Shown: positions 60,151-64,000 of the stretch, one piece after another
Numbering within the stretch: position 1 is the stretch's first letter
Layout of the letters: each line of letters opens with the position of its first letter
NCBI RefSeq assembly: GCF_000294775.2
Contig: NZ_CP015506.1
Span: 3,447,501-3,511,500 of the forward strand
Source of the DNA: Cytobacillus oceanisediminis 2691
GTDB lineage: Bacteria; Bacillota; Bacilli; Bacillales; Cytobacillaceae
Direction: 5' to 3'
DNA: 64,000 nt
Translations under genes and position numbers: made by a program
Notes under the pieces: model-generated
What the model saw: only the letters and a program-made list of their open reading frames with translations
Databases searched by the model: none
Told to the model about the DNA's origin: nothing

Positions 60151-61107
60151 TTATCGAAACCAGCCCTTCTTCTTAAACCACCAAAACATGCCTAAGGCAA
60201 TAATAAACATTAAAAACAGCGTTTCAAAGTAACCATATTTCCATGTTAATTCCGGCATGTTTTCAAAATTCATTCCGTAAATGCCCGCTATGAAGGTTAA
60301 TGGCATGAATATGGTGGTTATCACGGTAAGGACTCTCATCACCCGGTTTGTCTGATGGGAGTTGATCGATAAATAACTGTCACGGATATCGGTCGTCAAT
60401 TCCCTGTTTTCATCAATCATTTCAGTCAATTTCAACAAATGGTCATGAATATCAGCAAAGTATTCGTATCTTTCCTTTACGCCTTTAAGCCTATGAGAAT
60501 TAATGACACGGTATATTAAATCCCGCATTGGAATGACTGTATATCTTATCTGCAATAAATGATGACGGATATCAAATAATTTCTCCAATAATTCTTCCAT
60601 TGTTTCATCATTTGGATTATCTTCAATGAGACTCAAACGATCTTCCAGGTGATAAACGATGGGAAAGTAATTATCCACTATTTTATCAATGATATGATAC
60701 ATGACCAAATAGGGGTCCCATTTATTGATTTTCTTACTCTGGCTCAGCCTTTCCCAAACATCATTCATTTCTTTGGAGAGCTCATGGTGGTACGATACTA
60801 TGTAATTTGAACCGATGAAAAAGTTGATTTCCTGCTTATCTTCGTTAATATGATTTAAGCTATGGGTGACAAAAAAGCTGTAGTCTTCATAATAATCCAT
60901 TTTAGGACGCTGGAGTTTAACAACACAATCCTCTATTGCCAGGGGATGAAAATGAAAAGTCTTGTCGAGTTCAGCTGTTTCCTCCTCGTTTGGCTGATCA
61001 AAATCAACCCAAAACCACTTATAACTTTCCCACTCTGCTTTCAGCCTCTCAAATGTAATATCTTTCTGCAGTTCATCTTTCTTATTTACAGCTTGTATTC
61101 TAATCAT
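60151..61107 (-). CDS. corA: CorA-family Mg2+/Co2+ transporter
   Basis: A 318-residue CorA. The signature loop AGIYGMNFENMPE (GMN) connects two C-terminal membrane helices (about 258-278 and 292-312), the large N-terminal domain is cytoplasmic. It forms pentameric magnesium channels. The C-terminal tail is basic (FKKKGW). ATG at 61107 follows AGGAGAC. Single gene with a terminator; divergent from the T-box. Confidence 0.95.
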   Translation of the reverse strand: MIRIQAVNKKDELQKDITFERLKAEWESYKWFWVDFDQPNEEETAELDKTFHFHPLAIEDCVVKLQRPKMDYYEDYSFFVTHSLNHINEDKQEINFFIGSNYIVSYHHELSKEMNDVWERLSQSKKINKWDPYLVMYHIIDKIVDNYFPIVYHLEDRLSLIEDNPNDETMEELLEKLFDIRHHLLQIRYTVIPMRDLIYRVINSHRLKGVKERYEYFADIHDHLLKLTEMIDENRELTTDIRDSYLSINSHQTNRVMRVLTVITTIFMPLTFIAGIYGMNFENMPELTWKYGYFETLFLMFIIALGMFWWFKKKGWFR

Positions 61108-61346
61108 GATTGTCTCCTAGTCTTTCCATTCTGTAAACGTATTTTTTCCACTTTTGATAACGATATCCTAATGAGCACTCTTCCAATTGAATATTTATTA
61201 TTTACCTCTTCACCTTGCACTGTTAAACAAGAAAATACTTTCTTATTCTAGTCAGTCTACTGTAATAATTCGGTAAATACCTCTATATCCGTCTACTTTA
61301 ACGCTTTTATCCAAAAAAGTAATTTTAATTAACAAAAAATATTTAC

Positions 61347-61374
61347 TTGTCAACTAATTAATTTCAAATAATAA
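61347..61374 (+). promoter_or_regulatory. promoter of the T-box leader
   Basis: TTGTCA, 16 bases, TAATAA; predicted start of transcription falls at the first bases of the T-box (about 61381). Confidence 0.6.
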
Positions 61375-61377
61375 GTC

Positions 61378-61625
61378 GCTGACGAGAAGAGTAAGACAGG
61401 AATGCTTTTCCAAAGAGAGCCGGCATATGGTGAAAGCCGGTGTCCAGTACCTGATCCGAAGATCATCTCTGAGATGCAAAGCTGAAATACAGTAAGCTTT
61501 GACGGGTTTTCCACCGTTACATTGGAACGCGTATGATTGTACGTAGCTGAGTGCTACAGTTTTGAACTGCAGAATTAGAGTGGTATCGCGAGTATAGACT
61601 CGTCCCTTTCTGGGATGGATGCAAA
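61378..61625 (+). ncRNA. T-box leader RNA, probably isoleucine, without a downstream gene
   Basis: The plus strand shows the T-box parts in order: GACGAGAAGAGTAAGACAGG (Stem I 5' side with GA motif), AAGAGAGCCGGCATATGGTG (distal loop/AG bulge), the specifier region CTGATCCGAAGATC with ATC (Ile) at 61454-61456, Stem II/III, and the T-box AGAGTGGTATCGCGAGTATA (61576-61595) whose UGGU would pair with ACCA of an uncharged tRNA. tRNAIle has the needed A discriminator. No plus-strand gene follows within the window: the next 2.3 kb is all on the minus strand. It starts with a good promoter. Confidence 0.85.
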
Positions 61626-61637
61626 AGCTTCTTTATA

Positions 61638-61673
61638 AAGAAAAACCAGGCTCTTAAACAGCCTGGTTTTCCT
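61638..61673. terminator. bidirectional terminator after the T-box
   Basis: AAAACCAGGCT/AGCCTGGTTTT stem. On the minus strand it ends the GNAT gene (stop 61699); on the plus strand it would stop the T-box transcript. Confidence 0.85.
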
Positions 61674-61698
61674 ATTCCTTCACCTCAATTCCCGCTGC

Positions 61699-62142
61699 CT
61701 AGTTGAGAGTTTTCACAAACCCAGTACTCTTTGCCTGATACCCTAAACTTAAATAAAAATGATGAGCGTCTTCACGCTCAGTCCTGTTTCCGCTATTTAG
61801 TACGATTCCGGTAGCCCCCAATTGTTCTGCAAAATCTTCCACAGCCAGCATCAGCTTCTTGCCTGCACCAATCCCTCTGTAATTACTATCAGTAACTAAA
61901 GCAATAACCCGGATATGAATGCCGTCAGTATTGTATAAAAGACCTGTATGGAATCCAGCCATGCCAATAACCTTATCTATTAGACATGCCACTAATGTGC
62001 AGTAATCAGGATGTGAGCCGATGTTATTAAGCCTTGTTTCCATTTGCTCTTGCGATACAGGATAACCCAAGTCTCCCATTAAACGGGCAAGCTTGGGAAT
62101 ATCCTCAACACCCGTTTTCCTGATATGTATCTTATGCTTCAT
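61699..62142 (-). CDS. GNAT N-acetyltransferase
   Basis: A 147-residue acetyltransferase: IRKTGVEDIPKLARLMGDLG at the start, the acetyl-CoA loop DSNYRGIGAGKKLMLAVEDF, and the closing NRTEREDAHHFYLSLGYQ. The size and order are typical of single-domain GNATs that modify amines or antibiotics. ATG at 62142 follows AGGAAGGTGC. It is 27 bases after the next GNAT gene, on the same strand, forming an operon. Substrate unknown. Confidence 0.87.
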   Translation of the reverse strand: MKHKIHIRKTGVEDIPKLARLMGDLGYPVSQEQMETRLNNIGSHPDYCTLVACLIDKVIGMAGFHTGLLYNTDGIHIRVIALVTDSNYRGIGAGKKLMLAVEDFAEQLGATGIVLNSGNRTEREDAHHFYLSLGYQAKSTGFVKTLN

Positions 62143-62169
62143 TTTGCACCTTCCTGCCTTCAAGCGCTT

Positions 62170-62979
62170 TTATTCCCTTATCCAAATTGCTTTTGTATAT
62201 CCAATTTTCAAACCTGCTTTTTCCATATTATTCTGGCTTACCGAACCAAACCTTGCCTGACCAGTCAGCAGCTCGGCATTATTTGTAATCGCTTGGCAGA
62301 TTCGGGCTTGAATAAGCGCGCTGTGGACTCCCCTGTTTCTGAAAGAAGGCAAAACAGCCGCGGCCGCAAGATTTGCCACCCCTTCTTCCATAAAAATGAC
62401 ACCTATTCCAGCTGGTTCGTTGTTTACAAATGCTAGGTAAAAGGCCCAGTTTTCATTGCCATAAAGCACCTCATTATTTTCAGCTATCCCCTGGCTAAGG
62501 AAAACAGGCATGCCAAATCCCTTTGTATACACCTCGCCGAAAAGATCAAATTCCTTTCTTTGCATCCTGCGTATATCAATGCCAGCATGAATGGGAAGAT
62601 CCACAAGATCTGAAGGCTCCGCAAACAAAGTGGTATGGAAATCACATTGATAAAATCCTTTTTGATGAAGCAGCTTCAGTAAATCTGATGATCCGTTTGA
62701 TGGTGTGATCTCCAATCGAATTGGGATTCCTTTTCCCTGGTAGAAATCAACTATTTGATCCAGAACTTCTGTATCGGCTTCCTTAAATCCTTTAACGAGA
62801 TTGAATGATGGACCCGGAATATTCCTGGCAAAAAAAGCGGTTGTCTGGCCAATTCTTTTAATCTCAACGCCCATTGGGTTTTCATCCCGATTTTTAATAG
62901 CTGTCAATCTGGAGTGCAGCACATCTGTCTCTGCCTGGTCCAGCCTCTCAGCTAAGTCACTTTTCATCACTAGATTCAT
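62170..62979 (-). CDS. GNAT N-acetyltransferase (two-domain)
   Basis: A 269-residue protein of two GNAT-like halves. The C-terminal half has the acetyl-CoA loop VLPSFRNRGVHSALIQARIC and the ending QARFGSVSQNNMEKAGLKIG; the N-terminal half looks like a degenerate GNAT domain (VDFYQGKGIPIRLEITPSNG). Such fused GNATs occur widely in Bacillus and act on unknown substrates. ATG at 62979 follows GAGGTGA. It lies 17 bases after the toroid-like protein gene. Confidence 0.82.
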   Translation of the reverse strand: MNLVMKSDLAERLDQAETDVLHSRLTAIKNRDENPMGVEIKRIGQTTAFFARNIPGPSFNLVKGFKEADTEVLDQIVDFYQGKGIPIRLEITPSNGSSDLLKLLHQKGFYQCDFHTTLFAEPSDLVDLPIHAGIDIRRMQRKEFDLFGEVYTKGFGMPVFLSQGIAENNEVLYGNENWAFYLAFVNNEPAGIGVIFMEEGVANLAAAAVLPSFRNRGVHSALIQARICQAITNNAELLTGQARFGSVSQNNMEKAGLKIGYTKAIWIRE

Positions 62980-62996
62980 AATTTTCACCTCATTTA

Positions 62997-63938
62997 TTAA
63001 ACGTCAAGCCTTCCAAAAGAATGCAATATTTTATATCGCTTAACTGCAAGTATTCCTTTCCAATGATTGCGTGCAATTTGGAATTCATTATCAAATTGTC
63101 CCCAGCTCCAGGAAATATCCCATGTTCCTTCATTTGAGATCTGCTCAATATAGAAATCAAGATTATCATCAATTAACGTTCCAAATTTCATAGAAAGAGA
63201 ATCTTCTGGATGCTCAGCAAAATCCAAGGGAGTGGCTGTATAGCCTAATCCCCAATCTCCTTTGTTCTTCCCGGCAGCTTTGTATGCAAGAGCATTCACT
63301 TTCTCAGCCGTATGCTTGAGAGAGTAATTAATTCTGGAATCAAATTCAATTTCCTGCTTAGACATTAGCTTTACCAGCTGCTGAAAATTGTTAATTTCAT
63401 GTCTATCCATCTCATCGGCTTCCATTAAGTAATCAGATGCATTCTTAATTGTTTTCCACCCTATTTCAGCAGCACGGCTTCCAGACGATGACCAATGCAA
63501 TAAGAACCCGGCAAGCTCCGCACTTGGGTTATAAGACCAATTTTCCTGGACATTCTCTGTCCAATGCCACCATGGAGCATGTGGGTACTCGTTGTTTGAA
63601 GGCGTAACTGATGGCCACATTTTCTTCTCATGCATATAGCTGTGTTCTAAATAATTGACTAGTTTTTGTACAACATTTAACTCGGGTTTTGCTTCAATGT
63701 CCATCAAAATTTGTCCGGCCGCCCATGAAGCCATCGGGGAAGAGTAAGGGGACCAGAAATCAGGTTCAATGCCATGGCCGAATCCTCCATCGTCATTCTG
63801 AAAAGCTTCAATACATTTTATTACCCCTTCATCATTACGATCCTCAAAATGGTATGACCATAAAGCTGATTCAAGCGGCCTTGCATTTCTTTTAATCCAT
63901 CTGCCTGTATTCTCAAATCTTTCTTTCGTTATCTTCAT
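62997..63938 (-). CDS. hypothetical protein with prenyltransferase/terpene-cyclase-like toroid
   Basis: A 313-residue protein rich in Trp and His. CIEAFQNDDGGFGHGIEPDF resembles the QxxDGxF/W repeats of alpha-alpha toroid folds seen in prenyltransferases, squalene cyclases and related proteins; a second repeat-like stretch is GTWDISWSWGQFDNEFQIAR near the end. No catalytic DXDD motif is visible. ATG at 63938 follows AAAGGAAATAATTT. First gene of a three-gene minus-strand unit with the two GNATs. Function unknown. Confidence 0.7.
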   Translation of the reverse strand: MKITKERFENTGRWIKRNARPLESALWSYHFEDRNDEGVIKCIEAFQNDDGGFGHGIEPDFWSPYSSPMASWAAGQILMDIEAKPELNVVQKLVNYLEHSYMHEKKMWPSVTPSNNEYPHAPWWHWTENVQENWSYNPSAELAGFLLHWSSSGSRAAEIGWKTIKNASDYLMEADEMDRHEINNFQQLVKLMSKQEIEFDSRINYSLKHTAEKVNALAYKAAGKNKGDWGLGYTATPLDFAEHPEDSLSMKFGTLIDDNLDFYIEQISNEGTWDISWSWGQFDNEFQIARNHWKGILAVKRYKILHSFGRLDV

Positions 63939-64000
63939 AAATTATTTCCTTTCATAATTAGGCGTATTTGATTTCTTATTAGTTTTCTAGCTATAATTTC

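Follow-up and report, generated by a model that had tools for sequence, protein, structure and literature searches.

The mechanism of T-box regulation is established (PMC7583486 and PMC5951919, in their available text), and LIVCS transporters under T-box control have already been described (PMC2494555, available part). T-boxes that face genes on the opposite strand are also known: PMC9943018, in its available text, describes a T-box of Bacillus thuringiensis YBT-1518 that has a target in relatives and faces another gene after a rearrangement. Among the open-access matches listed, no title or abstract start concerned the locus studied here.

We analysed a window of 64,000 nucleotides, i.e., the whole stretch of DNA shown above, whose genome is referred to as G000. 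The leader within it shares its sequence, its specifier (ATC) and its neighbour (corA) with the isoleucine-specific T-box:brnQ (LIVCS) units of Bacillales, but differs from them in that the transporter, the promoter and most of the terminator's 3′ half are missing. With high confidence, and judging from comparative sequence evidence, we regard it as the stranded, decaying leader of a former isoleucine-responsive T-box:brnQ transcription unit. Set beside the cases of PMC9943018, as far as its available text describes them, it is clearly a further stranded case, by deletion: in YBT-1518 the insertion of a transposase gene was proposed, whereas in the window the target was deleted and the promoter and expression platform are damaged as well.

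An isoleucine-type T-box leader with no same-strand gene behind it

A single match at gathering score was found in the 64-kb window by Rfam covariance search, namely a T-box (RF00230) at 61370-61610 that spans model positions 1-219 of 219, i.e., the full length, and scores 121.5 bits (gathering score 93, E = 2.2e-26). The features concerned are:

61370..61610, plus strand: T-box leader (RF00230), specifier ATC (Ile), TGGT bulge kept, five window-only substitutions
61699..62163, minus strand: GNAT acetyltransferase gene, present whole and beyond brnQ in G005 and G001 too

The specifier, ATC (Ile), is in register with the ATC of another leader of the same genome (L017), which stands before an IleS-like frame, and aligns with the ATC of related brnQ and ilvB-like leaders (ileS and ilvB being names read by eye from translations). 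The T-box bulge (TGGN) reads TGGT, and all the features checked, i.e., AGAGA, the specifier and the TGGT bulge, are intact. An earlier, sequence-only reading had called a plus-strand T-box with specifier ATC and had pointed to the Rfam model as the means of checking it; the full-length match and the aligned specifier bear it out. Its statement that all genes from 61699 onwards lie on the minus strand also held. Downstream of the leader come minus-strand genes at 61699-62163 (GNAT), 62170-62988 and 62997-63938, and no same-strand gene was found there, as the plus-strand frames sit opposite minus-strand genes. One such frame, of 103 aa and 515 bases on (62125-62436), was assigned to the leader by a mechanical rule and was dropped as its target gene because it faces the two GNAT genes. 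As for a hidden plus-strand gene after the leader, there is only a seven-codon brnQ tail (see below), plus frames opposite the minus-strand genes.

Across the genome of the window there are 27 T-box matches at E = 0.001, 23 of them over the cut-off, and the window leader is the only orphan among them. For 25 of the remaining 26, a same-strand frame of 100 aa or more begins 6-606 bases past the match (three of these 25 belong to tandem leaders, their next feature being another T-box). The 26th (L014, G000:C1:236090-236350) has a same-strand frame of 511 aa that runs to the locus end and reads, by eye, like argS; it was rejected as a second orphan because this long frame merely starts, mechanically, inside the leader. 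Names of the genes behind these other T-boxes were likewise read by eye, including those behind two tandem arrays: three T-boxes before a threonyl-tRNA synthetase-like frame (G000:C1:623054-623835; L018, L020, L021) and two before a trpE-like frame (G000:C1 3615494-3616184; L005, L007). No further free-standing leader was found among the related leaders whose downstream gene was inspected, a set that leaves aside the short matches L055, L056, L057, L066 and L067.

Comparison with congeners shows the loss of brnQ

A DNA search with window positions 61330-61700 returned a split match in five congeners (G005, G034, G001, G019 and G011). Query positions 1-285, the leader, match at 91-93%, and query positions 285 to 354-359 match 1,359 bases further on; in other words, window positions 61330-61614 and 61614 to 61683-61688 stand 1,359 bases apart in these five. 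The junction was measured base by base in four of them (G005, G034, G001 and G011). The features are:

60151..61107, minus strand: corA, the synteny anchor of the locus comparison
61596..61614, plus strand: old T-box terminator (5′ arm, loop and first 3′-arm bases), from alignment and hairpin folds
61614..61615, plus strand: deletion junction, 1,359 bp of G005, G034, G001 and G011 missing, with a 1-nt breakpoint overlap
61615..61638, plus strand: brnQ tail, last seven codons plus stop, reading MDAKASL*, from comparison with relatives
61642..61670, plus strand: intrinsic terminator formerly after brnQ, which could also serve the minus-strand GNAT gene

The junction is flanked by CTTTCTGGG, ending at 61614, and by ATGGATG from 61615. 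In G005, the intervening stretch holds a 446-aa frame (L029:1839-3179) for a LIVCS branched-chain amino-acid transporter, brnQ (TIGR00796 livcs, 422 bits against a cut-off of 243, E = 2.4e-126; PF05525, 479 bits, E = 2.2e-143), and the brnQ frames of G034, G001, G019 and G011 are 94-97% identical to it. The more distant G004, G010 and G012 also have the leader plus a brnQ, 80-82% identical to that of G005; in G012 (L076) and G010 (L077), ~140 and ~190 extra bp relative to G004, including a G+C-rich repeat-like stretch, are found after the T-box terminator and ahead of brnQ. In 8/8 congeners that have the leader at this locus, it is thus followed by a brnQ frame free of internal stops, and the window leader is 87-93% identical to theirs. 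On the right, the break lies seven codons ahead of the brnQ stop, the end of the gene reading ATGGATGTAAAAGCTTCTTTATAA in G005 and G034; no ribosome-binding site for the tail left at 61615-61638 was visible by eye.

By synteny, then, the regulated gene is shown to have been lost and the RNA left behind, the lost gene being brnQ. This was the first of the alternatives offered by the sequence-only reading, which had spoken of a lost isoleucine-related gene and had named the comparison of related genomes as the way to recognise it. The specifier ATC fits the lost brnQ, with tRNA-Ile binding predicted.

On the left, the break cuts into the T-box terminator within its 3′ arm, most of which is deleted along with the T run. 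In the eight relatives, the terminator is a 12-pair hairpin of −20.8 to −20.9 kcal/mol with a T run behind it, as against 7 pairs, −10.7 kcal/mol and no T run in the window. The weak CGTCCC/GGGATG hairpin without a T run, rightly singled out from the letters alone, is weak because the deletion cut off both the T run and the larger part of the 3′ arm. The strong terminator further down had been ascribed, tentatively, to the minus-strand gene; it could serve that gene, yet it is the old brnQ terminator, which follows brnQ in G005, G034 and G001.

The promoter conserved in the relatives is not kept

The sequence-only reading had also credited the leader with its own promoter, which we could not corroborate. 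One feature is concerned:

61342..61369, plus strand: remnant of the T-box:brnQ promoter, TTTACT for the relatives' TTGACT, from alignment and promoter scans

In all eight intact relatives the leader is preceded, at a distance of 10 bases, by TTGACT-17-TAAATT with a TG ahead of the second hexamer. The window reads TTTACT instead, after which 11 alignment columns are missing before the leader, and it has not retained TAAATT. Immediately ahead of the leader, the plus strand shows no consensus site at 9/12, and the 80 bases upstream show none at 8/12 or better in a consensus-hexamer scan, a method that may miss an unusual promoter. Single scan matches were near chance in the window stretch (6 found vs 6.1 expected; the G005 stretch gave 4 sites vs 1.3 expected), so the loss was weighed on conservation in eight species instead. 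Measured against these species, the ancestral T-box:brnQ promoter is destroyed in the window by a small deletion and a substitution.

Pair-breaking changes within the leader

We compared the leader among nine species and found five positions (61407, 61513, 61522, 61556 and 61579) at which the window alone differs while the eight others agree. Unique changes number 0 in G005, 0 in G034, 1 in G001, 2 in G019 and 1 in G011, and 5, 2 and 4 in the far more distant G010, G012 and G004, respectively. Alone, the window-only changes prove little, as G010 has five and G004 four, though both are far more distant. Two of the window positions concern base pairs: the A at 61556 faces the C at 61570, and the A at 61579 faces the C at 61605. 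Apart from these A-C oppositions, all pairs of stem III and the antiterminator are standard; because of them, neither stem III nor antiterminator helix A1 is fully paired. Under the Rfam structure, a further three non-standard pairs fall in stem I, all of them away from window-only positions. The antiterminator fold is predicted at −7.2 kcal/mol in the window vs −9.8 in six relatives and −8.4 in two. The description of the leader as complete-looking therefore holds for the aptamer and fails in stem III and in the antiterminator, each of which has one broken pair. None of this decay is visible from the Rfam score, because 121.5 bits falls inside the spread of the eight relatives (115.7-129.8; seven higher, G010 lower).

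Counting changes by branch, we obtained 6-7 in the leader on the window branch vs 12-13 elsewhere, and 21-36 vs 145-151 in corA. Under three topologies, the excess of the leader rate over corA gave one-sided Fisher p values of 0.03, 0.08 and 0.10 and two-sided values of 0.03, 0.14 and 0.12; faster change of the leader than of corA on this branch is thus a weak signal, suggestive only. All in all, of the properties of a functional transcriptional T-box, the window leader lacks a fully paired stem III and antiterminator, a terminator with a T run, a recognisable promoter and a same-strand gene.

The locus in a second strain and across the genus

A second strain of the same species (G061) is 99.1% identical to the window over 5.55 kb (45 mismatches, 3 gaps) and identical over the 371-bp leader and scar stretch. 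This identity is uninformative on selection, because G000 and G061 show no differences anywhere in 60530-61722, which includes more than half of corA. Differences between the two strains rise from none there to 42 in 61723-64000, and a single-base gap at 63264 coincides with a split G061 match of a 313-aa gene.

The search of the genus covered 36 genomes, G000 and G061 among them; 19 of the 36 have a close corA (86-100% identity). At the corA locus, eight have the leader and brnQ, and G000 and G061 the leader and the brnQ tail. G024 (L078, G024:C3:127500-134500) retains the last part (3′ end) of brnQ without a leader, and G002 (L158, G002:C6:183000-190000) only an 88-bp internal piece of brnQ. 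Seven (G003, G006, G032, G008, G027, G009 and G023) lack both leader and brnQ within 1.5 kb of corA. None of the nine leaderless corA loci gave an Rfam match up to E = 0.1, and these same nine genomes have no brnQ with >47% identity to the lost one at E = 1e-30. Under a loss-only model, a count by hand on a corA tree, a single-gene tree with some weak forks, puts the number of losses at nine. At least three loss events are directly evidenced, in sequence, by the three distinct scars. Separately, G005 carries a second T-box:brnQ unit (L084, G005:C1:2327000-2334500), and a T-box:ilvB-like unit stands head to head with it. The brnQ of this second unit is split into separate frames, and is thus another brnQ pseudogene behind a T-box.

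G000 itself keeps two other brnQ-like genes, with 46% and 44% identity to the lost one, and neither has a T-box at gathering score within ~1.5 kb. At L059, the interval from the brnQ-like gene at 3421083-3422378 (G000:C1) to the next same-strand frame contains a purine riboswitch (RF00167, 74.7 bits).

Other readings of the leader

The RNA could be imagined to act in trans. The leader would then be transcribed from a non-consensus promoter and end at 61642-61670, yielding a small RNA that binds uncharged tRNA-Ile. The intact specifier, AGAGA and TGGT bulge and the Rfam score well over the cut-off are in keeping with this, and the terminator at 61642-61670 would define a 3′ end. We consider it very unlikely, given that the promoter of the eight relatives is gone with no substitute at 8/12 or better, that pairs are broken both in stem III, said in the available text of PMC7583486 to be indispensable if the 3′ end of the tRNA is to be sensed, and in the antiterminator, and that the related leaders with an inspected downstream gene include no other free-standing one. 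A shade less probable again is that the leader has been kept since the gene loss as a free-standing small RNA whose intact stem I would bind tRNA-Ile and titrate it, or report on it, in trans.

Harder still to credit is regulation of the GNAT gene on the minus strand by a T-box that acts in antisense. The orientation fits, the 3′ end of this convergent gene lying ~90 bp after the leader, and such arrangements have been published, with 107 antisense T-boxes beside 15,851 sense ones (PMC9943018, available text). However, the terminator at 61642-61670 stands between leader and gene, no promoter was recognised for the leader, and GNAT has no evident link to isoleucine. Moreover, in G005 and G001 the same gene lies beyond brnQ; the leader-GNAT arrangement is therefore a by-product of the deletion. 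PMC9943018 itself, in its available text, finds no tendency of T-boxes towards opposite-strand arrangement (P = 1.00) and attributes one T-box case to a transposable-element insertion. With the promoter lost, damage found in this species only and a terminator before the GNAT gene, action in trans or antisense to GNAT, as the sequence-only reading had entertained, was rejected as the leading interpretation.

Least credible of all is an assembly error that collapsed brnQ out of the window sequence: a clean one-gene deletion can in principle be an artefact, but the non-identical second genome (G061) has the identical junction and scar, the breakpoints have only 1 nt in common, and a genome-wide search found no near-identical brnQ elsewhere in G000, only the two at 46% and 44%.

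A riboswitch outliving its gene

Taken together, these results favour a stranded and decaying leader. In the arrangement of the relatives, compared in eight species, a promoter-like sequence, the T-box, the terminator and brnQ follow in succession; uncharged tRNA-Ile is predicted to stabilise the antiterminator, upon which RNA polymerase would read into brnQ. In the lineage of the window, a 1,359-bp deletion with a 1-nt end overlap removed brnQ together with the greater part of the terminator's 3′ half; the promoter was lost to a small deletion plus a substitution, and changes that break pairs arose in stem III and the antiterminator. The leader would thus be transcribed little or not at all, perform no regulation and be under no selection, and may persist only because there has not been enough time for it to be erased. 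Most likely it now does nothing and is probably silent. As for the gene, brnQ would have been expendable, probably on account of the two other brnQ-like genes still present in the genome, and the repeated loss of this brnQ copy suggests that the isoleucine-controlled transporter is expendable in the genus.

The locus offers a resolved example of a riboswitch dying after its gene, in which the deletion, the promoter loss and the pair breaks can be read against intact relatives. It also carries two warnings: a covariance score well above the cut-off does not mean a working riboswitch, and T-boxes opposite minus-strand genes can be deletion scars rather than antisense regulators.
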